Assembly: GCF_028369105.1 (NCBI RefSeq)
Contig: NZ_JAQNDO010000001.1
Span: forward strand, 5,238,501-5,302,500
Origin: Polyangium mundeleinium
GTDB taxonomy: Bacteria > Myxococcota_A > Polyangia > Polyangiales > Polyangiaceae
Length of the DNA stretch: 64,000 nucleotides
Direction of reading: 5' to 3'
Positions 7,628-28,399 of the stretch are shown one piece after another. A program made the position numbers and the translations under genes. The notes under the pieces are model-generated. The model was not told where the DNA came from and ran no database searches. It saw only the letters and a list, made by a program, of their open reading frames with translations. The stretch's first letter is position 1; every line of letters starts with the position of its first letter.

Positions 7628-10003
7628 TTATCCGATCTCGGCGCCCGCTACGAGCGCCGCGGCGACGCGGGCAAGGGCCGCCGGGCCCATGCTGAGCCGC
7701 GTGATGCCGAGCCCGACGAACGTCGCCGCGAGCTTTGGATCCGCCGCGGCCTCGCCGCAGACGGAGACGGCGCGCCCTGCGGCTCGTCCCGCTTGGGAGA
7801 CCCGATTCACGAGATCCAGCACCGCCGGATGTCCCGCGTCCGCGAGCGCGGCGAGCTTCGGATGACCTCGCTCGGCCGCGAGCGTGTATTGCGTGAGATC
7901 GTTCGTCCCGATGCTGAAGAAATCGACGTGCGGGGCGAGCTGATCCGCGAGCAGCGCCGCTGCCGGCACCTCCACCATGATGCCGAGCGGAACGGGCCAG
8001 AGATACGGTTTGCCCGTGGCGTCGAGCGTGCGCGCGGCACGCGCGAGGGCCGCTTTCGTGGCTTCGATCTCGGTCACCGTCGATACCATCGGGATCATGA
8101 TCCGCACGTCCCGGCCCCGCCCGGCGCGGAGGATTGCGCGGAGCTGCGTCTCCAGCAGGTCGGGCCGATCGAGGGAGAGGCGAATGCCGCGGAGGCCGAG
8201 GTAAGGGTTTTCCTCGGGGGGAACGTGCAGCCATGGCAATCGCTTGTCGCCGCCCGCGTCGAGCGTACGAATCACGACAGGCGCGCCGGGGAAGGCGGCG
8301 AGGACCTCGGCATAAAGGTCGGCTTGTTCGTCCTCACCGGGCGCGTCGTCGCGGTCGAGGAAAAACATCTCCGTGCGCAAAAGGCCGATCCCGAAGGCGC
8401 CTGCTTCCTTGGCGGCGCGCGCCTCCAGCGCGCTCGCGGCATTGGCCCAGAGTTCGACCGTCGGGCCCGAGGGAAGGGTGATCTTGCCGTGAAAGGCCGC
8501 CGCGGAGAGCCGCGCGGCCCGTTCTTCGGCGCGGCGGCGTTCGAGGTCGGCCGTGCGCTCGGGACCCGGATCGATCCACACCTCGCCGGTCGATCCATCG
8601 AGGCCGAGGCGGGCAGGGGATGCGGGAAGATCCTTCAAAAGGGATGCGGCTCCGAAGACGGCGGGAATGCCGGCGCCGCGCAGGAGGATCGCGGCGTGTG
8701 AGGTCGGGCCGCCACGCAGGTCGACGACGCCGAGCACGCGCGCGGGGTCGAGGCGCGCGGCTTCGCTCGGCAAAAGCTCGTCGGCGAGGAGAAGGGCCGG
8801 CGGGCCTTCGGGCAGGACGGCCGCGGGCGCGGCGCCGAGCGCGCGCAAGACGGCGAGCTCGACGTCGCGCAGGTCAGCGATACGAGCGCGCATGTAAGGG
8901 TCGTCCGCGCTCGCGAGGGCCATGGCCGCGCGTTCGATCCCCTCGTGGAAGGCGGAAGCGGCATTCTGATGTTGTTTGGTGATGCGCTCGCGGGCCGTTT
9001 GCAGGATGACGGGATCCCGGAGCAACGTGGCGTGCAGGGTCGCCATGTCGTCACGACCATACGCGCCGCGGATCTCCGCCTCGACCTCGTCGAGCGCGGC
9101 CGTGAGCCGATCGAGCTCCGCGGGGGGATTTTTGGTGAAGGGATGCGAGAAACGGATCTCGGCTCGTTCCAGGCGGACACACGGTCCCACGGCAACACCT
9201 GGCGCAATGGGGATCCCGCGGTCGTTCGTGGTCTTGTCAGGTGCCGGCGGCGGGGGCGCGTCGGGCGTCGTGCCAAACGTGCGCACGAGGGCTGCGATTG
9301 CGCGGACGGCGGCCTCCGCCTGGCGCCCCGAACCGGCGATGCGTAGAACATCCCCCCGCCGCGCCTGGAGCCCCGCGAGGAGGACGACGCTGTCCGCCGC
9401 GCGCGGCCCTTTTCCATTCGTTCGATTTTCGATCGCGACCTTCGCGTCGAACTGGGAAGCACAGGACACGAGCCGCGCCGCGGGTCGTGCATGCAGACCG
9501 TGCTCGTCGCCGATGACGGCGTCCTCCAAAAACACGTTTTCCGTGCTCTCGTCGACCGACGCGGGCGCGGGCGCGGGCGGGGCCTCCCCGAGCTGCTCCT
9601 CCTTGGCCAGGAGCCCCCGCCGCGCCTCGGCCGCGACCTCGTCGAGCGTCCCACCGCCCGCCGCGCGCACGGCCGCGGCGACGGCGCCTTCGACGAAGGG
9701 CCCTGCGGAGAGCCGCGTCTTCGCCGCGATCGACGCATCCACGAGATCGAGCGCGGTCTCGGCGCTCAAAAGGGCGCTGCCGAGATCCATCAAGACGAGC
9801 GCGCCTTTCTCGCCGGCCGCGCGTTCGAGCGCCGCCAGGATGGCCGTCGCATCGGTGCCGAGCGCCTCGCCCGCCTCGCCGACGCCGGCCGCGCATTCGA
9901 TGACCACCCTGTCGCCCGTCATCTGCGTCGCGAGCGCGCGCGTGGCCTCGGCGAGCGCGCGGCTATGGGAGACGAGGACGAGCCCGACCGTCGTTTGGCT
10001 CAT
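7628..10003 (-). CDS. dhaM: Dihydroxyacetone kinase phosphoryl donor DhaM fused to HPr and full Enzyme I
   Basis: The 791-aa product has three modules. Residues 1-135 are a DhaM EIIA domain (LVLVSHSRALAE, His13). Residues 155-245 are HPr with the hallmark HGLHARPAARLV (His171). Residues 260-791 are Enzyme I, with the swivelling-domain His436 in LRGGPTSHAAIL and the PEP-binding barrel marked by GTNDLTQYTLA and VCGEAAADP near the end. Escherichia coli DhaM has only an Enzyme I N-terminal piece and depends on separate EI and HPr; here the barrel is present, so phosphate could pass from PEP through His436 and His171 to His13 and on to ADP held by DhaL. Its ATG overlaps the dhaL stop (ATGA). Confidence 0.93.
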   Translation of the reverse strand: MSQTTVGLVLVSHSRALAEATRALATQMTGDRVVIECAAGVGEAGEALGTDATAILAALERAAGEKGALVLMDLGSALLSAETALDLVDASIAAKTRLSAGPFVEGAVAAAVRAAGGGTLDEVAAEARRGLLAKEEQLGEAPPAPAPASVDESTENVFLEDAVIGDEHGLHARPAARLVSCASQFDAKVAIENRTNGKGPRAADSVVLLAGLQARRGDVLRIAGSGRQAEAAVRAIAALVRTFGTTPDAPPPPAPDKTTNDRGIPIAPGVAVGPCVRLERAEIRFSHPFTKNPPAELDRLTAALDEVEAEIRGAYGRDDMATLHATLLRDPVILQTARERITKQHQNAASAFHEGIERAAMALASADDPYMRARIADLRDVELAVLRALGAAPAAVLPEGPPALLLADELLPSEAARLDPARVLGVVDLRGGPTSHAAILLRGAGIPAVFGAASLLKDLPASPARLGLDGSTGEVWIDPGPERTADLERRRAEERAARLSAAAFHGKITLPSGPTVELWANAASALEARAAKEAGAFGIGLLRTEMFFLDRDDAPGEDEQADLYAEVLAAFPGAPVVIRTLDAGGDKRLPWLHVPPEENPYLGLRGIRLSLDRPDLLETQLRAILRAGRGRDVRIMIPMVSTVTEIEATKAALARAARTLDATGKPYLWPVPLGIMVEVPAAALLADQLAPHVDFFSIGTNDLTQYTLAAERGHPKLAALADAGHPAVLDLVNRVSQAGRAAGRAVSVCGEAAADPKLAATFVGLGITRLSMGPAALARVAAALVAGAEIG

Positions 10004-10635
10004 TCTGCCGCTGCCTCGGCGAGGCTCTGGAGCAGGAGCCACATCGACGTGGCGCCCGGATCCTGATGGCCCGCGCTCCGCTCCCCGAGATAACTCGCCC
10101 GTCCTTTGCGCGCCACGAGCGGAATCGTCGCCTCCGCTCCCTGCCGCGCCGCCTCGGCCGCCTGCGAGAGCGCTTCGGCGAGCGAAACCCCCTCCGCGCC
10201 CTCGAAGGCCCGGATCGCAGGACCCAGCGCGTCGACCAGCGTCTTGTCGAGCGGCTCGGCCTTCCCACGTTTCTGGATCCCCGCGAGCCCGGCCGCGAGC
10301 GATTGCAGGATCGTCGCCCGATCGATCTCCGGTTTTCCCGCCGTTACCTTCGCCGCTTCCAGGAACAAGGTCCCGTAGAGCGGGCCGCTCGCGCCCCCGA
10401 CGGTCGAGAGCAACGTCATGCCCACGGTCTTCAGGATCGCGCCGACATCGTCTCGGGAATGCTCCGCGAGCTTGCCGCGCACGGCCGAAAAGCCGCGCGC
10501 CATGTTCGCCCCGTGATCACTGTCGCCGATGGCCGCATCGAGCTCGGTCAAGGTTTTCTCATTTTCCCCGATCACCTCGGCCGCGCGCTCGATCCACTGG
10601 ACCACGGTGTCCCCGTTCAAGATTCCGCTTTCCAC
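10000..10635 (-). CDS. dhaL: Dihydroxyacetone kinase ADP-binding subunit DhaL
   Basis: This 211-aa subunit carries the nucleotide that receives phosphate from DhaM and gives it to dihydroxyacetone on DhaK. The diagnostic stretch LTELDAAIGDSDHGANMARG (magnesium-binding Asp residues) is near residues 27-46, with STVGGASGPLYGTLF near 75 and GKGRASYLGERSAGHQDPGA-type residues at the C-terminal end. No ATG precedes the conserved core, so GTG at 10635 (VESGILNGDTVVQWIE) is chosen; it lies 1 bp after the dhaK stop. The 3' end overlaps the dhaM start by 4 bp, implying translational coupling. Confidence 0.92.
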   Translation of the reverse strand: MESGILNGDTVVQWIERAAEVIGENEKTLTELDAAIGDSDHGANMARGFSAVRGKLAEHSRDDVGAILKTVGMTLLSTVGGASGPLYGTLFLEAAKVTAGKPEIDRATILQSLAAGLAGIQKRGKAEPLDKTLVDALGPAIRAFEGAEGVSLAEALSQAAEAARQGAEATIPLVARKGRASYLGERSAGHQDPGATSMWLLLQSLAEAAAE

Positions 10636-10636
10636 G

Positions 10637-11638
10637 TCACACCCCCCAGCGCAGCGCCGCCGTGTGCACGGGCGCGTCCCAGGACCGAAGCATCTCCTCG
10701 TCGACCTGGAGGAGGGTGATGGATACGCCCGCCATTTCGAGCGAGGTGATGTACGGCCCGACGAGGCTGCGCACGACACGGAGGCCCCGCGCCGTCGCGA
10801 TCTCGTGCGCCTTGCGGAACACGACGTAAAGCTCGAGGAGCGGCGTGGCGCCGAGGCCATTGACGAAGAGGAGCACGTCCTTTCCAGCCCGGAACGGGAG
10901 ATCGTCGAGGATCGGTTCCATCAACATTTCCGTGATTCGATCGGCGGATTCGAGCTTCGCGCGCCTTCGGCCAGGCTCGCCGTGGATTCCGATCCCGACC
11001 TCCATCTCGTCCGGCCCGAGCTCGAACGAGGGTTTTCCCGCATGCGGCACCGTGCACGGGCTGAGCGCGATCCCCATGCTGCGCCCGTGCTCGTTCACGC
11101 GCCGGCCGAGGGCCGCGACGTCCGCCAAGGCTCGCCCCGCCTCGGCCGCGGCGCCGCAGATCTTCTCGACGAGCACCGTCGTCCCGACACCGCGGCGCCC
11201 CGCCGTGTACAGGCTGTTCTCCACGGCCACGTCGTCATTCACGAGCACGGTCTCGGTGGTGATTCCGAGGTCGCGCGCGAGCTCGCCGGCCATCTCGAAA
11301 TTCATGACGTCGCCGGTGTAGTTCTTGACGATGTGGACGACGCCCGCGCCGCCGTCGACGGCGCGCGTGGCTTCGAGGATCTGATCCGGCGTGGGGCTCG
11401 TGAACACCGCGCCGGGACACGCGGCGTCGAGCATGCCGCGCCCGACGAACCCCCCATGCAAAGGCTCGTGCCCGCTGCCGCCGCCGGAGAGCACCGCGAC
11501 CTTGCCCCGCACGGGCGCGTCGGCGCGCACGAGGAAAGCCGGGTCGACGTGGACGCGGAGGAGGTCCGGGTGCGCGAGGGCCATGCCCGCGAGGGCCTCC
11601 TTCACGAGATCGGAAGGCGCGTTGAGGAGCTTCTTCAT
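10637..11638 (-). CDS. dhaK: Dihydroxyacetone kinase substrate-binding subunit DhaK
   Basis: This 333-aa protein binds dihydroxyacetone covalently as a hemiaminal on a histidine. Visible landmarks are [14 protein letters not shown] (His57), [14 protein letters not shown] (Asp110) and the covalent-site His219 in [11 protein letters not shown], all at the positions expected from the family. It is first in a minus-strand dhaK-dhaL-dhaM operon. PTS-dependent kinases of this type turn dihydroxyacetone from glycerol or sugar breakdown into DHAP. No DhaR/DhaS-type regulator lies next to it in the window. Confidence 0.94.
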
Positions 11639-11809
11639 CGCGCGGAGGATACCGAAAGAGGGGAGCGGCCCGCGAGCGGAAAACGGAGGCGCTGGGAGAG
11701 AGGCGGGGGCGGAGAATCAAGACGGCAAAGCCTCGATGCGAGCGTTTCGCCCATGCGACCCTTGCCGTTCGGTGTGACGACCGCACGTTCCGGACTGGAA
11801 GGGGGATTC

Positions 11810-16806: not shown

Positions 16807-16881
16807 GGGAGGCGGCGGCCCCACGCGGGCGCGTCGTGGGTGGACAAGGGCGCACCGATCGCCGATAGTTCCGGGCGGCCC

Positions 16882-18327
16882 ATGCAGAGGACCGCCCATT
16901 TTCCTTTCATGTTCCCGCTCGTCGTGATGCTCGCTTGCGTCGCGTCGTGCAAGAAGAACGAGCCCCCGCCGCCGCAGCAAGACGCGCCGAAGGCCGCGCC
17001 GAGCGCGAGCGCGGCCTTGGCGGAGCCCGCGGGGCCGAAGGCCGTGCCCACGCTCGTCCTCGAAGAATTCGCGCCCGCGGGCAGCAGCAAGCCGGAGGCC
17101 GTCTTCGACGTCGAGGGCGCGGTCGTGGTGACGCACAAGCAACGCGTCGGCCGGATCGTGGGCGACGGCGTCGAATGGCTGAAGGAGACGATCCCGCCCG
17201 AGATTGGCGGGCCGCAGGCGACGGTCATCGACTCCGTGCAAGGCCTTTGGCCCGACGCGATCGACGTGCTCTATCGCAGCGACAGCATGCGGGCGCCGGT
17301 GCCCTCGTACATGCCGCTGACCGGAAAGGGAACCCGCAAATCCTTCGCCTGGGGCGGTGGCCCGGCCGCGATCAACGGCATCGCCCGGATCGGAGAATCG
17401 GTCCTGCTCCTGGGATGGTCGTACGCGTACGGGGACGGGATCTTTTTCTCGACCGTGCGCGGGCCCAAGCTCGATCGGAAGCAGCAGATGCCCACGGAGG
17501 CGGGGTGCAAGCCGGGAGAGGTCGAGTCCAGCGAGTTCATGCCGATCCGCCCCGCGATATGGGCGGACACGATCGCCGCCTCGAAATCGGGCGTGCTCGT
17601 CGCCGTCGGCCAGATGTGCCACACGCGGGGGCCGGCGCTGGAGGTATGGGACGAGAACGCGACGAAATCGCGGTTCATCGACGTTCGGCCTCTCGTGAAG
17701 GACATCGGCTTTTGGCCGAAGCTCCTCGGCGGCAAGGACGAGGTCTGGCTTTATTCGGGGAAAAACAATCCGATTCTCCAGCTCAAAGGCGGCGAGCTCA
17801 CGGCGTTGCCCCGGACCGAGGCGCCGCCGACGCTCGCATTCGTCTCGACGAGCGGCGTCTTGCACGTGGTCGCGGGCCCCTCGCTCGCGCGATGGGAGGG
17901 CGGGACATGGGTGGAGATCGGAAAGCTCTCCTGGCCCATGATCTTCCGCTCGATGGTCCTCGACGGCGACGCGATGTGGGCGTCCGCCGAGGGCAAGGTG
18001 TACCGGGTGCGCGAGGGGAAAGGCTGGTCGTTCGCGGAGGGGTGCAAGACGCCGCTCGTGTATCTCTACGACGTGAACCCCGGAAACGCGAACAAGTTCA
18101 CGTTTCCTTCGACCCGCAAGGCCCTCGCCACGTTCCCCGGCGTCGCCGACATTCGCTTGGTGGAGTTTTTCGAAGGCGGGCGGCGGCTCGGCGTCGAGGT
18201 GAAGAGCCAGGCGCAGGGAGAGGCCCTCATCTCGCACGTGAAGGCCACGATGAACGAGGAGAACCCGATCTTGATTTGCCACGCACCGGACAAGCCGCGC
18301 GTCATCGAGATCAAAGACGGGAAGTGA
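16882..18327 (+). CDS. Lipoprotein of unknown function, 481 aa
   Basis: ATG at 16882 gives a start with FPFMFPLVVMLACVASC, a lipobox-like VASC followed by KKNEPPPP; an internal ATG at 16909 would give a shorter, equally valid signal. A Pro/Ala linker leads into a mostly beta-rich body with repeated WxxG-type segments (KSFAWGGGPAAINGI, LLLGWSYAYGDGIFFS, LGGKDEVWLYSG, EGKVYRVREGKGWSF), compatible with a beta-propeller. No catalytic motif is visible. The stop is 5 bp before the next start, so the two genes are an operon. Confidence 0.72.
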   Translation: MQRTAHFPFMFPLVVMLACVASCKKNEPPPPQQDAPKAAPSASAALAEPAGPKAVPTLVLEEFAPAGSSKPEAVFDVEGAVVVTHKQRVGRIVGDGVEWLKETIPPEIGGPQATVIDSVQGLWPDAIDVLYRSDSMRAPVPSYMPLTGKGTRKSFAWGGGPAAINGIARIGESVLLLGWSYAYGDGIFFSTVRGPKLDRKQQMPTEAGCKPGEVESSEFMPIRPAIWADTIAASKSGVLVAVGQMCHTRGPALEVWDENATKSRFIDVRPLVKDIGFWPKLLGGKDEVWLYSGKNNPILQLKGGELTALPRTEAPPTLAFVSTSGVLHVVAGPSLARWEGGTWVEIGKLSWPMIFRSMVLDGDAMWASAEGKVYRVREGKGWSFAEGCKTPLVYLYDVNPGNANKFTFPSTRKALATFPGVADIRLVEFFEGGRRLGVEVKSQAQGEALISHVKATMNEENPILICHAPDKPRVIEIKDGK

Positions 18328-19145: not shown

Positions 19146-21599
19146 TTACTGCGTCCGCACGATGATGTGGAATCCGAACGGCGACTCCACGATGCCGCTC
19201 GTCTCGCCCACGCCGAGGTTGAGCACGGCGTCCTCGAATTCGCGGACCATCGCGCCCTTCGGGAACGTGCCGAGGTCGCCCCCGCGTTGCGCGGCGCCCG
19301 GCTCGTCGCTGTATTGTGCGACGATATCGTCGAAGCGCGCCCCCGCTTGCAGCCGCTTGTGCGCGTCCTGCGCGAGCGCCAGCGCCTCGCTCCGGCTGCG
19401 CGTGATGGTCGCAGGCGCGCGTTTGGAGCCCGCATACATCACGATCAGGTGTTTTGCGCCCAGGTGCCCCGCGGGCGTCACCGCCGACGCCGCGGGCGCG
19501 GGCGGGGCCGGGGACGGGGACGGCGGCGGGCTCAGCGGCGGCGGGGACGTCGCCACGAGGGGCACGGGCTGCCGGGCGTCGGCCTTCAGCGTGCCGGAGG
19601 CAATGGGCTCGTTCGGCTTCAGGGCCCTCGTGACGATCCGCTTGAAGTTGCGAAGAGGTTGCGCGTTGCCTACGAAATAATCGTTGATGACGAAGGCCGG
19701 CGTGCCCGTGATCTTCAGGCGCTCGGCGAGCTCCAGATCGGCCTGGACCACCTTCCAATGGGTGCGCGCGTCGAGTGCTGCCGAGAGCTTCGCCACGTCG
19801 AGCCCCGCCTCGGCGGCTTTGCGCTCGATGGCCGGGCGGCTCAAGCCCTGCTCGGTTTGATCCTCCCACAGGCGCGCCGAGAAGGCCCAGAAGCCGGCCT
19901 CGCCTTTCTGCCGGAAGGCCTCGACGGAGGCCTCGGCAGCGAGCTGCGCGTGCTTGTGGAAGGAGAGGGGAAAATGCCGCCAGACGACGCGGACCTTGCC
20001 CGGGAAGGCGGCGATGAGCTCATCGATGACCGGCTGCGCGCGCTTGCTGAAAGGGCACTGAAAGTCGGCGAACATCTGAATGGTCACTGCCGCTCCGGCC
20101 GGCGCGCCTTTGGCCGGATGGTCCTTCGTGGGCGCGGGGGCGAGGATTCTCTCCACGGGCTCGGGGCCCTTTGCGTCTTTCTGGAGTGCATCATAGATGT
20201 TCGCGGCCGGCGTCCCCGCGGCGATGAGCTTTTCGGCCTTCTTGATCTCCTCGTCGATGAGGGCTTCGAACGCCTCGCGGGGCTGCGCGCCGATGAGGCG
20301 CCTGCCATTGACGAAGAAATGCGGCGTGCCCATCACCTTGAAATCGTCCGCCAGATCCAGATCGCGCTCGATGCGCGCGGCATGCGTGTGCGACGCGATT
20401 GCCTTTTTCACGCGCTTCACGTCGAGGCCGAGGGCGATCGCGAGGTTTTCGAGCTCGGGGTCCGCGAGGCGATCCTGGGTGTCGAAGAGTGCCTGGAAGG
20501 CCTTCCAGAAGGCGGCCTCTCCCTTTTGCACGCCGGCCTCGATGGCGAGCTCGGCGGCCGCCTCGGCGCGCGAATGCATGGGCAGGGGGTTGTGCTTGAA
20601 CACCAGGCGCAGTTTGTCGCCGTACTTGGCTTCGAGCTCGGTGAGCGTCGCGATCGACCGCTTGCAGAAGGGGCACTGGAAATCGCCGAACATCACCATG
20701 GTCACGAGCGCGGTCGATTTGCCGCGCGCGGGCGAGCCGTCGAGCGGGATCTTCCAGGCCGTGTCCGAGTCCGACGGCGGAGGGGGAGGCGGCACGGGCG
20801 GCGGCGCGTTTTTGTAGTTTTGCTCGGAGAGCTCGGCATAGACGCGCTCGGGGGGAACGCCCTTGCGCCGGAGCGCGGCGGCCTCTTCGAGCTCGGCGTC
20901 AATGGCCTCCTGGAACTTCGTGAGGGGCTGAGCGCCGGCGAGGAAGATGCCATTGATGAACGAGGCCGGCGTCCCTCGGACGCCGACTTGCTTGGCGAAC
21001 GCGAGGTCCGCGTCCACGTTCGCGGCGAAGCGCTGCTGGTCGAACGCCGCCTGGAACGCCCAAGGATCGATGCCGCTCTGGGCCGCCCAGTCGTTGAAGG
21101 AGGGGACGTCGAGGGAGCGCTGGTTCCGGAACGCGAGGGCGTGAAACTTCCAGAATGCGCTCGCGCCCCCGAGCCGCAGCACCGTCTCGGCCGCGAGGTG
21201 GGCGGGGCGCGCATTCCTGTGGAACGGGAGCGGGTTGTGTTTCCAGACGACCCGCAATTTGTCGGGACCGTACTGCTGCTGCAGGAGCGCCAGCGTGGCC
21301 ATGAGCCGCGACGTGAAGGGGCACTCGAAATCGCCCCAGATGACCATCGTGACCGGGGCGAGCGGGTTTCCCCAGGCAGGGGCGTCGGGACCGACGGGGA
21401 TGGCCGTCCCGGGATCGGGGAGCGCGGCCGCGCCCTCGCCCTCGTTGGCCGCCTCGGGCACGGCGAGGGGGCGGCGCCCCGGTTCGTCCTGGCTTACCGC
21501 CACCGCCGGCTGCACGGGCGGCGGGGGGGCGCAAGCGGCGAGCAAGATCAGGGCCGTCGAAACGAACGCCGCGCGGCGCCGTCCACGTGCGTGGTTCAT
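19146..21599 (-). CDS. Lipoprotein with three DsbA-like thioredoxin domains and a C-terminal parvulin PPIase domain
   Basis: The 817-aa product starts with a lipoprotein signal (ALILLAAC, Cys23). Three DsbA/thioredoxin_4 domains follow, each with an active-site loop, a conserved KHNPLPxH-type segment and a cis-Pro loop (GTP). Their loops differ: CPFT at 93-96, CPFC at 309-312 and CPFS at 515-518. Only the middle domain has the CXXC needed for disulfide exchange; the outer two keep the first Cys and could bind substrate as mixed disulfides or act as holdases. After a Pro/Ser linker, residues 712-817 match parvulin (AKHLIVMYAG, QYSDEPGAAQRGGDLGTF, FGFHIIV). It should fold or oxidise exported proteins at a membrane. 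It is divergent from the MNIO operon with 194 bp between starts. Confidence 0.92.
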   Translation of the reverse strand: MNHARGRRRAAFVSTALILLAACAPPPPVQPAVAVSQDEPGRRPLAVPEAANEGEGAAALPDPGTAIPVGPDAPAWGNPLAPVTMVIWGDFECPFTSRLMATLALLQQQYGPDKLRVVWKHNPLPFHRNARPAHLAAETVLRLGGASAFWKFHALAFRNQRSLDVPSFNDWAAQSGIDPWAFQAAFDQQRFAANVDADLAFAKQVGVRGTPASFINGIFLAGAQPLTKFQEAIDAELEEAAALRRKGVPPERVYAELSEQNYKNAPPPVPPPPPPSDSDTAWKIPLDGSPARGKSTALVTMVMFGDFQCPFCKRSIATLTELEAKYGDKLRLVFKHNPLPMHSRAEAAAELAIEAGVQKGEAAFWKAFQALFDTQDRLADPELENLAIALGLDVKRVKKAIASHTHAARIERDLDLADDFKVMGTPHFFVNGRRLIGAQPREAFEALIDEEIKKAEKLIAAGTPAANIYDALQKDAKGPEPVERILAPAPTKDHPAKGAPAGAAVTIQMFADFQCPFSKRAQPVIDELIAAFPGKVRVVWRHFPLSFHKHAQLAAEASVEAFRQKGEAGFWAFSARLWEDQTEQGLSRPAIERKAAEAGLDVAKLSAALDARTHWKVVQADLELAERLKITGTPAFVINDYFVGNAQPLRNFKRIVTRALKPNEPIASGTLKADARQPVPLVATSPPPLSPPPSPSPAPPAPAASAVTPAGHLGAKHLIVMYAGSKRAPATITRSRSEALALAQDAHKRLQAGARFDDIVAQYSDEPGAAQRGGDLGTFPKGAMVREFEDAVLNLGVGETSGIVESPFGFHIIVRTQ

Positions 21600-21793: not shown

Positions 21794-22324
21794 GTGGAAT
21801 TGAAAATTGCCCTCGTCGCTGGAGCCGTTGGCGCCCTCGCCGGTTGTGCCGGTGCCGCGGACGGGTCGTCTCCCAGCCAGGCGGACACCACACCCGAGCC
21901 CGACCCGGCCGCGGGCAACGCCGCCCTCATGTCGCTGAATGAGAACATGGCCCGCCTGCGCGCGCTCGCGGTCTTCGATGCCGATCATGTCATCTTTGAT
22001 ATGCCCGGGCATTCTTCCAATTGTTATTCGGTCTGCAAGCATCGCCAGATCGCCGCGCTCCGCGTGGACAAACTGGCCGACGTCGCCGAGTCCGCCGTGA
22101 AGACCCCCGCCCCGGACGCCTGCGCCGAGGCGACCATCGAAAAGAACCTCGCCGCGCTGAACGCGCTCCATATCGTGCACGTCGAGGGGCTGATCAAGGA
22201 CGAGCCCAAGAACAGCGCCAACTGTTACCAGCCCTGCGAGCCCGTTGTTCAGGATGCCAAGGCCCTCACCTGCGAGCGCGCCGGGAAGCTCGCGAGCATC
22301 GTGAACGCGGCCAAGGATCTGTGA
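21794..22324 (+). CDS. Lipoprotein with duplicated NCYxxC module, candidate MNIO substrate
   Basis: There is no ATG near the start; GTG at 21794 sits 5 bp after AAGGAG and gives MELKIALVAGAVGALAGC, a lipoprotein signal with lipobox LAGC (Cys18). The 176-aa product repeats one module. Residues 50-103 contain ENMARLRALAVFDADHV, then SSNCYSVC (Cys77, Cys81) and KLADVAESAVK. Residues 116-175 contain EKNLAALNALHIVHVEG, then SANCYQPC (Cys144, Cys148) and KLASIVNAAKD. Two more cysteines lie at 110 and 160. The next gene starts inside its stop codon. MNIO enzymes modify cysteine-bearing peptides, so this is the natural substrate candidate; a heme- or metal-binding lipoprotein is an alternative. Confidence 0.8.
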   Translation: MELKIALVAGAVGALAGCAGAADGSSPSQADTTPEPDPAAGNAALMSLNENMARLRALAVFDADHVIFDMPGHSSNCYSVCKHRQIAALRVDKLADVAESAVKTPAPDACAEATIEKNLAALNALHIVHVEGLIKDEPKNSANCYQPCEPVVQDAKALTCERAGKLASIVNAAKDL

Positions 22325-23271
22325 GGGCCCGTTTTCCCGACGTGAATGGGCGCCTCGGGCTGGGGGTCGGAATGGATCTCCCCTGGGGCGCCCCGGTCGG
22401 GTTCACGCACGATTCCGGGCGTGGGGATCACGTGACGGATCCGGTCGTGCGGTTCTTGTCGTCCCATGCCGGGGCCTTTCGGTATCTGTTCACGTCCTTC
22501 CAGCCCCGGAGTCGAAATCGCCTCGATCCCCGCGAGTACTTCGACGCCTACGACGACCTGTTTGCCCGCATTCCAGCGTTCTCTGTGCGCGCCCTCCACC
22601 AGACGACCTTCAACCTGGGCGCGCTCGAAGCCTATGATCGCGGGCGGATCCTCGATTTCACGAACGCGCTCGTCGACCGGTACCACTTCGCGTGGGTGAA
22701 CGAGGATCTCGGCCTCTGGTCGCTGCACGGCAGGCCCTTGCCGTACCCGCTGCCGCCGTATCTCACGCCCGCGGGGCTCGACGCCGCCATCCGGAACACG
22801 GCCGAGGTGCAAGAGAAGCTTCTGGCGCCGCTCTTCGTGGAGTTCCCCGGATTCTCGGACGGGACGAGCTTTTTCATGGGCCAGATGCACGCGTATGATT
22901 TTTTCCGGACGGTCGTGGAGGAGACGCGGTCGCCGGCCACGCTCGACGTGGGGCACCTCCTTTCCTATCAATGGCTGCTCGGCAAGCGGGGCGAGGCGCT
23001 GTTCGGGGAGGTCGAGCGATTGCCGCTCGACCATTGCTTCGAGATTCACCTCTCGGGATGCGCGATCGACGGTGATTCCTTCATGGACCATCACCACGGC
23101 GTGCTTCTCGACGAGCAGCTCGAGCTCCTTCGTCGCCTCCTTCCGCTTTGTCCGAACCTGTCCGCGATCACCTACGAAGATCCGAGGCTCGACGCCGAAG
23201 GGCGGCTCGCCCCCGAGACCGTCACGAGCTTCGAGCGCCTCCGGGACGCCGTGGACCTCTGGCTCTCATGA
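22321..23271 (+). CDS. Divergent DUF692/MNIO family enzyme (MbnB-like)
   Basis: The 316-aa product follows the DUF692 TIM-barrel order: start RLGLGVGMDLPW, ALHQTTFN (His93), VNEDLGLWSLHG (Glu128) with PLPPYLTPAGLD, LLAPLFVEFPG (Glu174), TLDVGHLLS (Asp209, His212), EIHLSGC (His243), DHHHG (257-259) and ITYEDPR. These line up with the iron-ligand positions of MbnB and TglH, though several segments are atypical (LDVGH where many members have LDVNN). The start GTG at 22321 overlaps the upstream stop (GTGA); GTG at 22342 is the alternative. MNIO enzymes use two or three irons and oxygen to alter Cys or Asn side chains of ribosomal peptides. The reaction here is unknown. Confidence 0.82.
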   Translation: MRARFPDVNGRLGLGVGMDLPWGAPVGFTHDSGRGDHVTDPVVRFLSSHAGAFRYLFTSFQPRSRNRLDPREYFDAYDDLFARIPAFSVRALHQTTFNLGALEAYDRGRILDFTNALVDRYHFAWVNEDLGLWSLHGRPLPYPLPPYLTPAGLDAAIRNTAEVQEKLLAPLFVEFPGFSDGTSFFMGQMHAYDFFRTVVEETRSPATLDVGHLLSYQWLLGKRGEALFGEVERLPLDHCFEIHLSGCAIDGDSFMDHHHGVLLDEQLELLRRLLPLCPNLSAITYEDPRLDAEGRLAPETVTSFERLRDAVDLWLS

Positions 23272-23978
23272 TCTCGCTCGATCAGGCGCTCGACCGGCTT
23301 TTGCATCATCGCTCGTACCGGGAAGCCTTTCTCGCGGGACGCGTTTCCGAGCTCGACGTGTCGGAAGGCGATCTGCGCGCGCTCCAATCCATCGACCCGG
23401 AGCAGCTCCGAAGGACGGTCGAGCGCGTGCGCGCGGATGTCATCCAGCGAAAACATCGGGGGAGCGGCGGGCTCCTCACGATATACGCGCGCACCCTGGA
23501 CGCGTGGAGGGCCACGCATCCCGAGGATCACGAGCTCGAAGAGTTGCTGGCGTCGTTCCTGGAATCCCCAGCCTTCGATGCGTATCGCGCACATTCCCAC
23601 GCGGGCCCCGGGGTCTGCCTCGAAGAGGCCTTCTTTCGGTTCTGCGATGCACGCGGGATCGGCGACGGCGCGATCCGGGAGGCAGAGTTTCTCACGGCGA
23701 TGATGAAGGCGCTCCTGATGAGCCCGCTGCCGGATTTCACCCTGCCGGCGGAGGTTCGTGTCGTCCCGGATGGGTTTTTCGCGGTGGGCGAGCGGGCCGG
23801 GCCCACGCTCTACGCCGCCGTGCGCGGAAAGCTCGTCCTCGGGCCGATCACGCCCTTCCTCGCGGATCTGCTCCTGTCGGACGACAGCCCGGTCGAGATC
23901 GCGCGCAAACACCACGTCGCCACCATCGTGCTGCAAGCGTCGCTCGATCACCTCGCGGGGCTCGGGCTCGGCCGCTGA
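23268..23978 (+). CDS. Probable MNIO partner protein (MbnC/BufC-like), 236 aa
   Basis: The ATG overlaps the MNIO stop (ATGA), so the proteins are translationally coupled. The N-terminal part (LDQALDRLLHHRSYREAFLAGR, then IDPEQLRRTVERVRADVIQR) and the stretch LLTIYARTLDAWRATHPEDHELEELLASF resemble partner proteins that deliver substrate to DUF692 enzymes (DUF2063-type). The C-terminal third (VRVVPDGFFAVGERAGPTL to DSPVEIARKHHVATIVLQAS) looks like a small domain for docking or leader recognition (PqqD-like in outline). Family assignment rests mainly on position and general pattern, so it is provisional. It has no signal peptide. Confidence 0.65.
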   Translation: MISLDQALDRLLHHRSYREAFLAGRVSELDVSEGDLRALQSIDPEQLRRTVERVRADVIQRKHRGSGGLLTIYARTLDAWRATHPEDHELEELLASFLESPAFDAYRAHSHAGPGVCLEEAFFRFCDARGIGDGAIREAEFLTAMMKALLMSPLPDFTLPAEVRVVPDGFFAVGERAGPTLYAAVRGKLVLGPITPFLADLLLSDDSPVEIARKHHVATIVLQASLDHLAGLGLGR

Positions 23979-23982
23979 GCCG

Positions 23983-24191
23983 CGGTTCCACAAGGGCGAG
24001 GTCGCTCGCGCCAAGGCCGGGGGTGTGTTCCGCAACGGCGGAGCCGTGTTCCGCAAGGCGGCGTTGTGTTCCGCAAGGGCGATGTCGTGTTCCGCAAGGG
24101 CGATGTCGTGTTCCGCAAGGGCGGGGGCGTGTTCCGCAACGGCGGGGGCGTGTTCCGCAACGGCGGGGGCGCTCGCGTCAAGGGCACAGCC
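23983..24191. repeat. 21-bp tandem repeat array (about 10 units)
   Basis: Seven good units begin GTGTTCCGCAA at 24025, 24046, 24066, 24087, 24108, 24129 and 24150 (one step is 20 bp, the others 21). Diverged units flank them, including GCTCGCGCCAAGG at 24004 and GCTCGCGTCAAGGGCACAGC at 24171. The array lies between the convergent stops of the MNIO operon and the hybrid kinase gene. The last unit closely resembles the repeat at 54025-54383. Confidence 0.9.
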
Positions 24192-24203: not shown

Positions 24204-26945
24204 TCATCCCGTCCCCGTGGCCTCCTTCAGCTTCCCGCTCCCCACTTCGGCCAGCATCTTCTCCAGCGCCGGAAGGCTCGGCGGCTTCGCCATGTGCCTG
24301 TCGAAGCCGGCTTGCCTCGATCGCTCCACGTCCTCCTGCAAGGCATACCCGCTCAGCGCCACCAGGTAGACCGATCGCAGCTTCGGATCCGCGCGTATCG
24401 TCCGCGCCACGCCATACCCGTCCATCCCCGGCAAGCCAATGTCGCAGAGCACCACGTCCGGCTCGAAGCGACGCGCCTTCTCGATGCCCTCGGGCCCCGC
24501 GAACGCGACCTCGACCACGTGGTCGCCCATCCCCAGCGCGTCGCGCAGCGTCTCGGCCGCGTCCACGTTGTCCTCGATGACGAGGACCCGCCGCGCCGGC
24601 TCCCGCCGCGTGGCCACAGGCGCCGCAGCCCGGCTCCACGCGAGGGCCGGGGCGAGCGGCAGCCGCACCGTGAACCGCGCGCCTTGTCCGAGCCCCGCGC
24701 TCGCGGCCGTCACCGTCCCGCCGTGCATCTCGCAGAGGCCCTTCACCAGCGAGAGCCCGAGCCCGAGCCCTCCGCGGCTTCGATCGAGCGTGCAATCCGC
24801 CTGCACGAACGGCTCGAACACGTGCGGCAGCGTCTTCGGCGGGATGCCCGCGCCGTCGTCCCGCACGCACACCACAGCCTCGCCCCCCTCGCGCTTCGCC
24901 GACAGGAACGCGTGGCCGCCCCGCGGCGTGAACTTCGCCGCGTTCGTCAGCAGGTTGCCCACGACCTGCGCGAGCCGCGTCGGATCACCGTCGACGTGGA
25001 GCGACGCCGGGTCCACCTCGACCTCGAGCGTCACGCCCGCCAGCTCGAAGCTCGGCCCGAGATCCTCGGCGAGGCGATGCACGAACTCGCCGAGCTCGAC
25101 CCGCTCGCGCTGGAGCTGGATCTTGCCGCGCGAGATACGCGTGACGTCGAGCAGGTCGTCGATGAGCCGCGTCATGTGCGTGACCTGTCGCTCGATCGCC
25201 GCGTGCGCGCGCCGCGCCTGCGGCCCTCCCGGCGCGGCGCGCTCCAGGATGTAGAGACCGTTGCGGATGGGCGCGAGCGGGTTTCGGAGCTCGTGCGAGA
25301 GCATCGCGAGGAACTCGTCTTTGCGCCGATCCGCCTCGCGCAGCGCGGTCTCGCTCTCGCGCAGCGCTTGCTCGGCCTCCTTGCGCTGCGTGATGTCCTG
25401 CATGATGCCCACGCTCCGGACCGGCGCGCCCGCGGCGTCGCGGATCAGCCGCGCCGCGGCGTGCACCCAGATGATCCGCCCGTCCTTGCGGACGTAGCGC
25501 TTCTCCGTGCAGTACTCGTCAACCTCGCCGCGCACCATGCGGCTGTACTTCTCCCAGTCCGCCTGGCGATCGTCGGGGTGCGTCATGTCACGCACCGTGC
25601 CCGAGAGCAGCTCCTCGCGGCTGTAGCCGGTGATGTCGCAATACCGATCGTTCACGCGCAGGATCCGCCCCGTCCCGGGATCCACCTGGCCCATGCCGAC
25701 GATCGCCGTCTCGAAGAACGCGCGGTACTGCTCCTCGCTCTGCCGCAGCGCCTCCTCGGCTTGCCTGTGCTCGGTGATGTCGCGCTTCACCACGACCGCG
25801 AGGATCTGCTGGCCCTGCTCGTCCCGCACGGGCTCGCCGCTGAAGTTGAAGATCCACGTCTGACCCGTGTCGAGGCGCCTCGTGTGGAGCTGCCAGCCAG
25901 CGAAGGACTCGCCCCGCAGCGCGCGGGATACGGGCCATTCGTCGACGGCGAGCACGTGGCCGTCGAGATCGGTGAGCTCGTAGAGCGCGGCGAAGTCCGC
26001 GATGGAGATCTTCCTGCGGTTCATGAAGGCGTACTTCACCGCCTCCGCGCTGTTCACGAGGACCACCTTGCCCTCCATGTCGAAGACGACGATGCCGTCC
26101 GGGATCGCCTGGAAGACGGCTTCGAGCTGCGCGCGGCTGTGGTCGGCGCGGGCCGCAGTCTCGCGGAGCGCCTCGACGAGCTGCCGGCGCTCCTCCTCGA
26201 TCCGCTTGCGCGCCGTGACGTCGCGGAAGAAGACCGCGATGCCGCCCTCCTTCGTCGGGTACACGTTCACGTGTGTCCAGAGATCGAGCGGCGCGTAGTA
26301 CTCGTCGAACTCAGCAGGCACGCGCTCGCGCATGACGCGGCTGTACTCGCGGAAGTAACGCGAGTGCGGGCCCGCGAGGGAAGGGTAGACCTCCCAGAGG
26401 CTCCGGCCGAGCGTCTCGCTGCGCGGCTTCAGGCTCAGGCGCTCCTGGCGCGGGTTGACGAAGACGAAGCGGAAGTCTTGATCGAGCACGAAGCAGGCGT
26501 CGCCGCGATCGAGCACGTCGAAGGCGCGCGCGAGATCCTCGGAGTCGTGGCGCGCGTGCTCGTGCTGCTCGTGGATGTCGAGGGCGAAGCCGGACCAGTC
26601 GACGACGGCGCCGCGGTCGTCGAGGATCGGCGCGCTGCGGAGCGAGAACCAGCGGTACACGCCGTCGTGCCGGCGGATGCGGGCGTCGATCGCAAACCGC
26701 TCGGCCGAGGCGAGCGCGTGTCTCCACGCCCGAGCGGCGCAAGCTTGGTCGTGGGGGTGCAGCACGCGCTGCCAGCCGAGGCCGTAAAGCTCCGCGGCGG
26801 GGAGGCCGGTGTACGCGATCCACGAGGCGCTTGCGAAGTCGCATGTGCCGTCTGCCCGGCACGCCCAGACGAGCCCAGGCAAGCTGTCGAGGAGCCGTCG
26901 ACATCGGCCCTCCGCGAAGGCAGCACCTGCACGAGGCTCGGCCAT
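24204..26945 (-). CDS. Multi-PAS hybrid histidine kinase with receiver domain
   Basis: ATG at 26945 gives 913 aa; the frame continues upstream into the neighbour without a better start. There is no membrane segment, so it senses inside the cell. Four PAS domains are visible: 14-125 (LLDSLPGLVWACRADGTCDF), 135-245, 272-392 (LEAVFQAIPDGIVVFDMEG) and 400-518 (YRAFFETAIVGMGQVDPGTG). The phospho-acceptor His551 is in FLAMLSHELRNPLAPI, with N and G boxes (NLLTNAAKF, VRDDGAGIPP, GGLGLGLSLVKGL). A C-terminal receiver has Asp835 in LCDIGLPGMDG. Output must go through another protein, since no effector domain follows. The gene divergent from it starts 161 bp away. Confidence 0.93.
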   Translation of the reverse strand: MAEPRAGAAFAEGRCRRLLDSLPGLVWACRADGTCDFASASWIAYTGLPAAELYGLGWQRVLHPHDQACAARAWRHALASAERFAIDARIRRHDGVYRWFSLRSAPILDDRGAVVDWSGFALDIHEQHEHARHDSEDLARAFDVLDRGDACFVLDQDFRFVFVNPRQERLSLKPRSETLGRSLWEVYPSLAGPHSRYFREYSRVMRERVPAEFDEYYAPLDLWTHVNVYPTKEGGIAVFFRDVTARKRIEEERRQLVEALRETAARADHSRAQLEAVFQAIPDGIVVFDMEGKVVLVNSAEAVKYAFMNRRKISIADFAALYELTDLDGHVLAVDEWPVSRALRGESFAGWQLHTRRLDTGQTWIFNFSGEPVRDEQGQQILAVVVKRDITEHRQAEEALRQSEEQYRAFFETAIVGMGQVDPGTGRILRVNDRYCDITGYSREELLSGTVRDMTHPDDRQADWEKYSRMVRGEVDEYCTEKRYVRKDGRIIWVHAAARLIRDAAGAPVRSVGIMQDITQRKEAEQALRESETALREADRRKDEFLAMLSHELRNPLAPIRNGLYILERAAPGGPQARRAHAAIERQVTHMTRLIDDLLDVTRISRGKIQLQRERVELGEFVHRLAEDLGPSFELAGVTLEVEVDPASLHVDGDPTRLAQVVGNLLTNAAKFTPRGGHAFLSAKREGGEAVVCVRDDGAGIPPKTLPHVFEPFVQADCTLDRSRGGLGLGLSLVKGLCEMHGGTVTAASAGLGQGARFTVRLPLAPALAWSRAAAPVATRREPARRVLVIEDNVDAAETLRDALGMGDHVVEVAFAGPEGIEKARRFEPDVVLCDIGLPGMDGYGVARTIRADPKLRSVYLVALSGYALQEDVERSRQAGFDRHMAKPPSLPALEKMLAEVGSGKLKEATGTG

Positions 26946-27106
26946 GGGTCCATCGGCACGTGGTGCCGTGCGGGCCCGATCGCAAGCTGGCGCGGCGTAG
27001 CGGCTGCCCGTGCGCCTCGGGCATGGCCGGCTTGCCTCTTCACGTTCGCCCCGCGTCGGAGCAAACTGCGCGGTCTCTGTGGAGGCCGAGGAAGGAGCGG
27101 TGGCGC

Positions 27107-28399
27107 GTGAGCGAGGCACCTGGGATCTGGTTCGTGTATCGATCGCACTACGAAGGGCCGCTCTCGCGCCTCGTTCGGCGCCTCGACGCGCCCTCGATCC
27201 TCGCGTGGTTCTCGCAGAAGATGAGCGATGCCAAGAAGGCCGAGGATCCGAGCCGCATTTATGAGGACGAGCTCGGCGGCTACGTGTACGGGTTCGGCAC
27301 GGTGTTCGAGGCCGTCAAGGAACACGGGCTCATAGCGCCGAAGTCGACGGCCGAGCTCGAGAAGATCCTCCGCAAGCACCTCTACGTCGAGGGCGACGCG
27401 GGGCACATTCGCATCGACGAGCACTCGCTCCGCGTGCTGACGGACGACGACGAAGTCGAGCTCGCGTACTTCTTTTTCGATGACGAGGTCGTGCGCAAGC
27501 AGCCCGAGCGCGTGTCCTTTTTGCTCCAGGAGGAGCCGAAGCTGCCGGAGGGCGACGCGGACGGCTCGTTCACGCCGCCCTTCGAGCCGGAGCCCGTCCT
27601 GCCGCGCGGCGAAGGCGAGGGGACGACGTACGCTTGTCTGCTCACGTCGTACGACGGTGACTCGATCCCGGGCCTCGCCGTGGCCATCCCCGGCGTGCGG
27701 CTGCCCGATCTCGCGTCGCACCTGCGCACCGTGGTGCCGGCGAAGAAGCCGGCGTCCTGGTCGAAGGAGTGGCTCGAGACGTGGCCGGTGGAGCTCCGGC
27801 TCCTGCGGGCGATGATCGAGCCGGGCCAGATCTCGATCGCGCCGGCGCTCACGAAATGTGCGGCGTATCCGCTGCGCGAGGTCGTCACCGGGACGAACCA
27901 CACGCTGCTCGGCGTGGGCGCGCACCAGAACGCGGAGAGCGAGTTTTACAAGGTGGGGACGGCGTTCGAGGGGACCGGAGATCCCGCGCAGGCGATCGTG
28001 CAGGTGGGCAAGCACGCGGCGCTCTTCTGCCCGCACACGTCGAGCGCGTTCGGCCACGAGCAGTGGATCCTGTTCGACGATCGCTGGGCCGCCGCGCATC
28101 CGGCGCTCGCCGCGTCGATGTTGCGGTATGCGCACGGCTGGGATCCGCTCCGCGACCCCGCGCCGACGAAGCCGGTGGAGACCGCGGCCGAGCAGAAGGA
28201 GCGCGCCTGGAAGGAGGCGCTCGGCGGGCGGATGGAAGAGAAAGCGGCGCCGTACCGTACGACGGCGAGGTTTGCCGCCGGAGACCTCGTCGACCACACG
28301 AAGTTCGGACGCGGGCTCGTGCGTCGCGTGGACGGCGCGAAAATCGAAGTGATTTTCAAGGACGGCGCCAGGCTCCTGGCGCACGCGATGCCAGGGTGA
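27107..28399 (+). CDS. Unknown protein with C-terminal Tudor/SH3-like segment, 430 aa
   Basis: GTG at 27107 lies 9 bp after AAGGAG and is the best start (VSEAPGIWFVYRSHYEGPLS). The body (residues 1-380) is unrecognised and has WVxEF-type aromatic residues and acidic stretches, with no signal or membrane span. The last 50 residues, ARFAAGDLVDHTKFGRGLVR and then KIEVIFKDGARLLAH, match the Tudor-like module at the C-terminus of UvrD/PcrA helicases and of many myxobacterial proteins of unknown role, where it contacts partners such as RNA polymerase. The next gene begins 119 bp downstream in the same direction. Confidence 0.75.
   Translation: MSEAPGIWFVYRSHYEGPLSRLVRRLDAPSILAWFSQKMSDAKKAEDPSRIYEDELGGYVYGFGTVFEAVKEHGLIAPKSTAELEKILRKHLYVEGDAGHIRIDEHSLRVLTDDDEVELAYFFFDDEVVRKQPERVSFLLQEEPKLPEGDADGSFTPPFEPEPVLPRGEGEGTTYACLLTSYDGDSIPGLAVAIPGVRLPDLASHLRTVVPAKKPASWSKEWLETWPVELRLLRAMIEPGQISIAPALTKCAAYPLREVVTGTNHTLLGVGAHQNAESEFYKVGTAFEGTGDPAQAIVQVGKHAALFCPHTSSAFGHEQWILFDDRWAAAHPALAASMLRYAHGWDPLRDPAPTKPVETAAEQKERAWKEALGGRMEEKAAPYRTTARFAAGDLVDHTKFGRGLVRRVDGAKIEVIFKDGARLLAHAMPG

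Follow-up and report, generated by a model that had tools for sequence, protein, structure and literature searches.

A PbsC-type MNIO enzyme and its very probable substrate, a lipoprotein with two leader-core modules, in Polyangium mundeleinium

In Polyangium mundeleinium, three overlapping genes encode a lipoprotein, here called LipA, an enzyme of the multinuclear non-heme iron-dependent oxidative enzyme (MNIO) family and a partner protein. The question raised by this locus is whether the lipoprotein is the substrate of the enzyme and, if so, which of its residues might be modified; the comparisons reported below argue that LipA is very probably an MNIO substrate. The sequence analyzed, hereinafter the window, is a stretch of 64,000 nucleotides (NCBI RefSeq assembly GCF_028369105.1, contig NZ_JAQNDO010000001.1, positions 5,238,501 to 5,302,500 of the forward strand) from a genome of 13.25 Mb, and its nearest named relatives are Polyangium strains. 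The three genes are as follows (window positions; aa, amino acids):

21794..22324, + strand: lipA, encoding the exported lipoprotein LipA with two leader-core modules, the predicted substrate; GTG start, 176 aa
22321..23271, + strand: MNIO gene (PbsC-type, DUF692, PF05114); GTG start, 316 aa, GTGA overlap with lipA
23268..23978, + strand: partner gene (MNIO partner, PME-type 2, with an RRE-like domain at about residues 164-236); 236 aa, ATGA overlap with the MNIO gene

The operon is real as observed and conserved. The GTGA and ATGA overlaps reported in a preliminary description of this DNA are indeed present, and the three genes are translationally coupled on the + strand (21794-23978). When codons were compared between the window and three other Polyangium genomes, the ratios of non-synonymous to synonymous substitution rates (dN/dS) were 0.36-0.72 for lipA, 0.11-0.13 for the MNIO gene and 0.27-0.39 for the partner gene; therefore, all three genes are constrained, lipA being the fastest-changing.

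The hidden Markov model search by which the preliminary description had proposed to check the second gene for DUF692 gave a match of 49.4 bits with Pfam PF05114 (cut-off 25), which places the protein in this family. It fell far under the cut-offs of the NCBIfam equivalog models ApyH, BufB and ChrH (41.4 bits with BufB, for which the cut-off is 310). The metal ligands of PbsC, predicted from a model, are His97, Asp133 and Glu178; His216, Asp260 and His262; and Asp213, His247 and Glu290 (PMC12026744, PMC12257519). The window MNIO carries His93, Asp129 and Glu174; His212, Asp256 and His258; and Asp209, His243 and Glu286, that is, by the published numbering, the PbsC positions minus 4 at all nine. 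The seven ligands listed previously (His93, Glu128, Glu174, Asp209, His212, His243 and Glu286) are present as residues; that list missed Asp256 and His258, and the ligand next to Glu128 is Asp129 in the PbsC numbering. All nine are kept in 26 of the 26 readable members of the clade, and a further member, L054 (L and G numbers are our handles for loci and genomes), shows five of them before its run of N.

The positions of Asp129 and His212 are occupied by His and Asn in the usual-type MNIOs L001-L003, from the same genome, and L031. Judging from the DxxN pattern, this Asn seems to be the counterpart of HvfB Asn175, a predicted site-3 ligand. The Asp/His pair is also found in L077 and in a more distant MNIO from the same order (L030, ~9529-11672, - strand), which lies near precursors ending in SNKEWQE (StdA type) and SAKEWQD in a std-type cluster; the MNIO of the std system hydroxylates homocitrulline (PMC13174530). 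FHAFRF precursors lie 2.0-5.0 kb from relatives of the window MNIO (48-58% identity) in Nannocystis pusilla, Rhodococcus, two Streptomyces and an Actinomycetes metagenome-assembled genome; in one of the Streptomyces (L042), the upstream gene codes for a radical SAM protein, the B12-binding match of which stays below threshold. In the phylogenetic tree, the LipA-linked and the FHAFRF-linked MNIOs form one group of 27 rows (support 99/97 versus seven outgroup rows), and the FHAFRF-linked rows form a subclade together with two Nonomuraea rows (98/96). With an Asp129/His212-type site in the PbsC register and a position in the same clade as the FHAFRF-linked MNIOs, the window MNIO is grouped by its sequence with PbsC (aromatic hydroxylation) and not with MbnB, TglH or BufB. 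Three points weigh against this placement: the match with the PbsC ligands was established by published numbering, the LipA-linked MNIOs do not come out as a single clade, and a long-branch warning applies to the part of the tree where the outgroups join.

Some observations on MNIO genes stand apart from this argument. The same genome harbors three further usual-type MNIO genes (G000:C1:5805460, 11054983 and 12166328). The myxobacterium Nannocystis pusilla DSM 53165 holds a biphenomycin-type cluster with an FHAFRF precursor (L038, 7578-11726). A plasmid search with the MNIO returned two distant matches, each covering about half of it.

The protein encoded by the third gene found no match in Pfam. 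Its AlphaFold2 model (pLDDT 90.4, pTM 0.83) had MbnC as the top Foldseek match (E 0.1, probability 0.85), and in VIA-align TglI came first (Z 9.3, root-mean-square deviation 5.0, 207 residues) and MbnC next (Z 6.8-7.6), all the other chains scoring at most 4.8. The model thus predicts a TglI/MbnC-like fold with an RRE, as expected of a PME partner; the overall fold is alike, with identities of 16% to TglI and 8-12% to MbnC, and the enzymes and substrates of those systems differ. The idea that the third gene encodes a partner-like protein is in agreement with this predicted fold; the DUF2063 search suggested together with it gave nothing, since this signature of PME-type 1 was matched, at E 1, by none of 20 homologues of the partner. 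According to the classification of PMC12452194, the partner is of PME-type 2. In that paper, exported precursors are linked to PME-type 1 partners, so the LipA systems, in which a signal-bearing protein is paired with PME-type 2, are an exception. At four loci (L029, L043, L053, L072) the MNIO and the partner share one stop-free frame, a single-protein product being putative; an apparent fusion in L054 was not counted because of the run of N between the two domains.

The features of LipA are listed below:

21845..21847, + strand: Cys18, predicted lipid-attachment Cys in the lipobox LAGC (by eye)
21941..21991, + strand: leader-like segment of module 1, residues 50-66 (ENMARLRALAVFDADHV); family profile test, strand 61-66 in the model
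22019..22036, + strand: core of module 1, NCYSVC (Cys77, Tyr78, Cys81); sequence
22142..22192, + strand: leader-like segment of module 2, residues 117-133 (KNLAALNALHIVHVEGL); family profile test, strand 128-133 in the model
22220..22237, + strand: core of module 2, NCYQPC (Cys144, Tyr145, Cys148); sequence

The lipobox, LAGC with its Cys, was judged by eye and not by a signal-peptide predictor. A Cys stands in the column of Cys18 in 17 of the 19 homologues and is absent from both Bdellovibrionota proteins. Homology between the two modules is evident from profile searches with modules cut by hand, in which module 1 recovered module 2, in register, in 19 of 19 proteins, and module 2 recovered module 1 in 16 of 16; L036, L037 and L074 were excluded from the module 1 set, being without a usable leader-like segment there. 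The two halves of the preliminary description are therefore real, and its motif NCYxxC is only a local form, because the family (136-267 aa) also has CxxxxC (CYNLPC) and longer cores; both window cores are CxxxC, and many homologues have CYNLPC in module 2.

In the LipA model (pLDDT 84.6), each module consists of a helix, a beta-strand within the leader-like stretch (61-66 and 128-133), the core loop and a long helix. A Pfam scan of 19 family members gave a best match of E 0.093 and no DUF2282 precursor signature. No convincing match was obtained for the structure in the PDB (best Foldseek E 2.2, best VIA-align Z 3.0), a result which does not by itself demonstrate a new fold, or among viral models (best E 0.33), and LipA and partner profiles found no credible match among PDB chain sequences. 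Outside the cores, 12 of the 19 homologues have both Cys110 and Cys160 and six have neither, one truncated protein being discordant, and such a co-variation is the pattern expected, from sequence, of a disulphide in an exported LipA fold.

The resemblance between these modules and the biphenomycin precursors concerns first of all the leader. In FHAFRF precursors this segment reads like ELDDLDVIESAELKVGGAFHAFRF, and the same pattern occurs in LipA modules (e.g., LAALDGLDIVEVFGLVEEVPQNNPYCYNLPC in L034), where a stretch similar to the biphenomycin leader LxxLxhhExxxL precedes a CYxxPC-like core. The best window of a LipA-module profile lay exactly 22 residues before FHAFRF in five of five precursors, equal or better shuffles numbering 53, 10, 0, 0 and 1 of 5000. 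The spacing of 22 was found again in five further peptides (FHAFRF or YHSYTY, the latter in two), with 0 of 2000 shuffles as good in each case; these peptides come from relatives of a Streptomyces, include two near-identical pairs, so that about three are distinct, and are only presumed to be adjacent to an MNIO gene. A sixth peptide match, L097, failed the filter and was left out. When 5079 open reading frames (ORFs) were scanned with the LipA profile, L045 followed directly below the LipA proteins and L049 stood in the fourth row beyond them; when a profile of five biphenomycin leaders was used instead, LipA ORFs took ranks 6, 9, 11-17, 23 and 28, and all 20 LipA rows (18 proteins) fell within the first 259.

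In the same scans, single proteins may match poorly. Two unrelated ORFs score above L049 in the forward direction, and L038 and L042 are outside the top 45; in the reverse direction L033, L032 and L036 rank 156, 239 and 259, and the window LipA, which lay outside the scanned set, would rank 164 of 5080. Thus, the case for a leader is one for the LipA family and not for the window protein by itself, the ranks of single proteins being weak; a leader before the core is found with the family profile and is weak for several single proteins, the window LipA among them. A PbsA3 fragment without the conserved leader stretch was left unmodified by PbsCD (PMC12026744), and this stretch is presumably the segment matched in LipA.

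The distribution of the genes links LipA to the enzyme. In a sample of 183 genomes of the order, the MNIO subfamily (E 8.9e-97 or better) and LipA were found in the same eight genomes, two others having distant MNIOs only. Among 377 genomes of the phylum, the MNIO profile (E <=1e-40) and the LipA profile hit the same 11 after G078 was dropped, the LipA match of which was rejected (in-frame stop, E 2.5e-4, ORF without a CYxxC core). A lipoprotein in a genome lacking the MNIO gene, the counterexample named in the preliminary description, was found in neither sample. With named contigs included, LipA occurs in 20 genomes, two of them Bdellovibrionota, and the MNIO gene is adjacent in 19. One of these 19, the Polyangium G149 (L026, ~9452-10217), retains only remnants, all three genes being cut down together. 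The exception is G443, in which an intact lipA (L071, 4180-4758, - strand) lies on a contig other than that of the fused MNIO-partner frame (L053, 9323-11134, + strand), and this frame is preceded by a short LipA-like ORF. Neither LipA nor MNIO was found in the congener G152, LipA was found in none of eight genomes with the same MNIO clade in another context (in three of which 150 of 158-168 candidates were scored), and a LipA search in 240 genomes of the L036 phylum returned only the one already known. The sampled genomes are related, so these co-occurrences are not independent events, though they span several families and two phyla.

The substrate role proposed in the preliminary description is thus very probable, given the gene coupling, the presence in the same 11 of 377 genomes and the leader-like segments; its likening of the enzyme to Cys- or copper-type MNIOs is unsupported, since the enzyme is grouped with PbsC and the modules are similar to leaders of the biphenomycin type. 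With each module resembling a biphenomycin leader plus core, LipA is best interpreted as a tandem of two leader-core substrates within a single exported lipoprotein. We slightly favor the idea that the operon is a lipoprotein maturation system in which the PbsC-type MNIO hydroxylates the core Tyr of both modules.

Gene structure, the families of enzyme and partner, co-occurrence and leader similarity are observed; from them we infer the substrate role of LipA, the target residue, the order of events and the function, as follows. Pre-LipA would still be cytoplasmic when the MNIO-partner complex modifies it; the RRE-like domain of the partner would bind the leader-like beta-strand of each module, and the MNIO would oxidize the CYxxPC-like core that follows it. 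The likeliest reaction would be an ortho-hydroxylation (C-delta1) of Tyr78 and Tyr145, as carried out by PbsCD on Phe and Tyr. Modified LipA might then be exported by Sec, lipidated at Cys18 and retained, folded and with two modified loops, in the envelope, no cleavage to a free peptide being envisaged. The Cys-Tyr-Cys loop might perhaps have a redox or metal-binding role. More tentatively, at somewhat less than even probability, Tyr78 and Tyr145, lying beside or between Cys residues and ortho-hydroxylated to 2,4-dihydroxyphenylalanine, might constitute a new kind of protein-borne site for redox chemistry or metals, and the leader strands might persist as structural elements of the mature fold.

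Hydroxylation of Tyr78 and Tyr145 is likelier than a Cys/copper chemistry because PbsC hydroxylates Phe and Tyr; PbsCD acts on both at the same ring position, C-delta1 (PMC12257519). Within the core, CY varies least (it is present in 16/19 first modules and 17/19 second modules), and the Tyr lies 28 residues from the start of the leader-like segment in 29 of 35 modules (range 24-29), the modified Phe residues of biphenomycin precursors being at 25 and 27. In module 1 of L073 the cysteines are lost and the Tyr is kept at offset 28; in module 1 of L029 the Cys position is unchanged and the Tyr is shifted by one. The main rival, itself unlikely, is the reading put forward in the preliminary description, namely that the core Cys residues are modified (here, to a thiooxazole, an oxazolone-thioamide or a related group) and form a membrane-anchored metal (copper) site. 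It is favored by the fact that most known MNIO reactions use Cys (PMC12257519), by lipidated CxxxxC precursors predicted as MNIO substrates (PMC12636315), by the weak BufB match reported above and by conservation, Cys144 occurring in 19/19 homologues versus Tyr145 in 17/19, and Cys77 in 17/19 versus CY in 16/19; with the first core Cys conserved at least as well as the Tyr, a Cys chemistry keeps its place among the candidates. However, the Asp129/His212 pair replaces the usual His/Asn and is common to PbsC and L030, both of hydroxylase groups (a correlation drawn from few enzymes). Furthermore, L027 and L073 lack the second Cys of module 2, L036 and L037 carrying CTGYC there, and no copper gene is adjacent to the window operon, which is flanked by genes for a DsbA/PPIase protein and a PAS histidine kinase. 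Beside this Cys conservation, further points weigh against the hydroxylation of Tyr: the first core is degenerate or lost in L073 and L074, L036 and L037 have a different second core, and the PbsC reaction is not simply transferable to LipA, because the core is not FHAFRF and the scanned neighbors include no radical SAM protein or arginase.

It is improbable, in our opinion, that the MNIO and its partner change LipA at another core residue or in some other way, by hydroxylating Asn or Pro, crosslinking Cys to Tyr or cleaving the backbone. The outcomes of MNIO reactions are diverse and, unless an enzyme is highly homologous to one already studied, unpredictable (PMC12257519), BipEF cleaves the backbone without additives in a condition-dependent manner (PMC12707348), and Asn/Gly and Pro are recurrent core residues (CYNLPC, CYGPC); yet Asn and Pro are less conserved than Cys-Tyr, and the window cores, CYSVC and CYQPC, have no Asn after the Tyr. 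Even less probable is a LipA that acts as a functional partner and not as a substrate, for instance as an envelope protein using the MNIO product of another peptide. The modification of LipA is not itself an observation, and proteins beside MNIO genes need not be precursors, as adjamnio-II and -III indicate (PMC12452194); nevertheless, the leader-like segment lies within LipA itself, twice in 16/19 homologues, and LipA and MNIO co-occur in 11/11 genomes, the search of the window for other precursors not having been exhaustive.

How does the preferred reading, a PbsC-type hydroxylation of LipA, relate to the known systems? The biphenomycin systems (PbsA/PbsCD, BipA/BipEF) share with it the nine ligand positions, the RRE-like partner domain and an LxxLxVIExxEL-like segment before the target, and the MNIO relatives of 48-58% identity belong to clusters of this type. 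They differ in that LipA is an exported protein of 136-267 aa with a lipobox and mostly two modules, the core of which is CYxxPC-like and not FHAFRF/YHxYxY; moreover, the window does not present a biphenomycin gene cluster, lacking a short FHAFRF/YHxYxY precursor and, in the four scanned neighbors, a B12 radical SAM. The bufferins, Buf2 and the CxxxxC family (PMC12452194) are similar in the precursor-MNIO-partner order, in Sec export and in including some lipoproteins (about 16% of the Buf2 bufferins have a predicted lipoprotein signal) and some duplicated precursors, but their partners belong to DUF2063 (PME-type 1) and those of the LipA systems to PME-type 2; nor does the locus correspond to a bufferin or oxazolin one, LipA being without DUF2282 and the partner without DUF2063.

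The preliminary description set a membrane-anchored, two-module substrate apart from the small precursors known to it, but a membrane anchor is no new feature of MNIO substrates: DybA and NedA have been shown to be lipidated MNIO substrates, belonging to the so-called DAG-RiPPs (RiPP, ribosomally synthesized and post-translationally modified peptide; PMC12636315), and membrane anchoring alone is therefore not a novelty. The DAG-RiPP systems (DybA/DybH, NedA/NedBC) likewise combine a lipoprotein signal and MNIO modification in one protein, but their MNIOs are of the ChrH or oxazolin type and act on CPACGMG or EGKCG motifs. The same paper mentions an uncharacterized group of CxxxxC lipoproteins, 'Cluster X', with which LipA may overlap, and its mining would omit 15 of the 19 LipA proteins because the precursors kept were of 50-160 aa. 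In the open-access literature searched, supplements aside, no LipA family with a PbsC-type MNIO was found described, nor any substrate that contains two embedded leader-core modules, and supplements may list the family. As far as searched, three things are new: the LipA substrate family, the pairing of a PbsC-type enzyme with a signal-peptide protein, and the repeated embedded leader.

These findings suggest that the type of chemistry by which precursors of biphenomycin antibiotics are hydroxylated also acts on a cell-envelope protein of a soil bacterium. If this is true, PbsC-type MNIO chemistry would reach from short natural-product precursors to an envelope lipoprotein, a RiPP leader could be duplicated and retained as a strand of a folded protein, and the reported tie between signal-peptide substrates and DUF2063 partners would be broken. 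The Asp/His versus His/Asn difference in the active site might serve as a testable sequence predictor of hydroxylating versus Cys-oxidizing MNIOs.

As for the surrounding genes, the divergent neighbor (19146-21599, - strand) encodes a protein of 817 aa in which three DsbA-like thioredoxin domains are combined with a PPIC-type isomerase domain, and this gene adjoins the locus in 5/5 Polyangium loci, even where the operon is broken. Four window neighbors were scanned (16840-18324, 19149-21599, 24207-27119 and 26831-28396) and no B12 radical SAM, arginase or transporter was found among them. In 15 loci compared with the window, no gene apart from a LysR regulator was shared beside the operon, and the idea that a linked peptidase or transporter frees a peptide was therefore dropped. 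This regulator adjoins the lipA operon in seven loci (L028, L029, L036, L037, L054, L070 and L072), and its Polyangium homologue (52% identity) is unlinked to the operon. Right after the partner gene, at about 24020-24180 of the window, there are tandem GTGTTCCGCAAGGGCG-like repeats.

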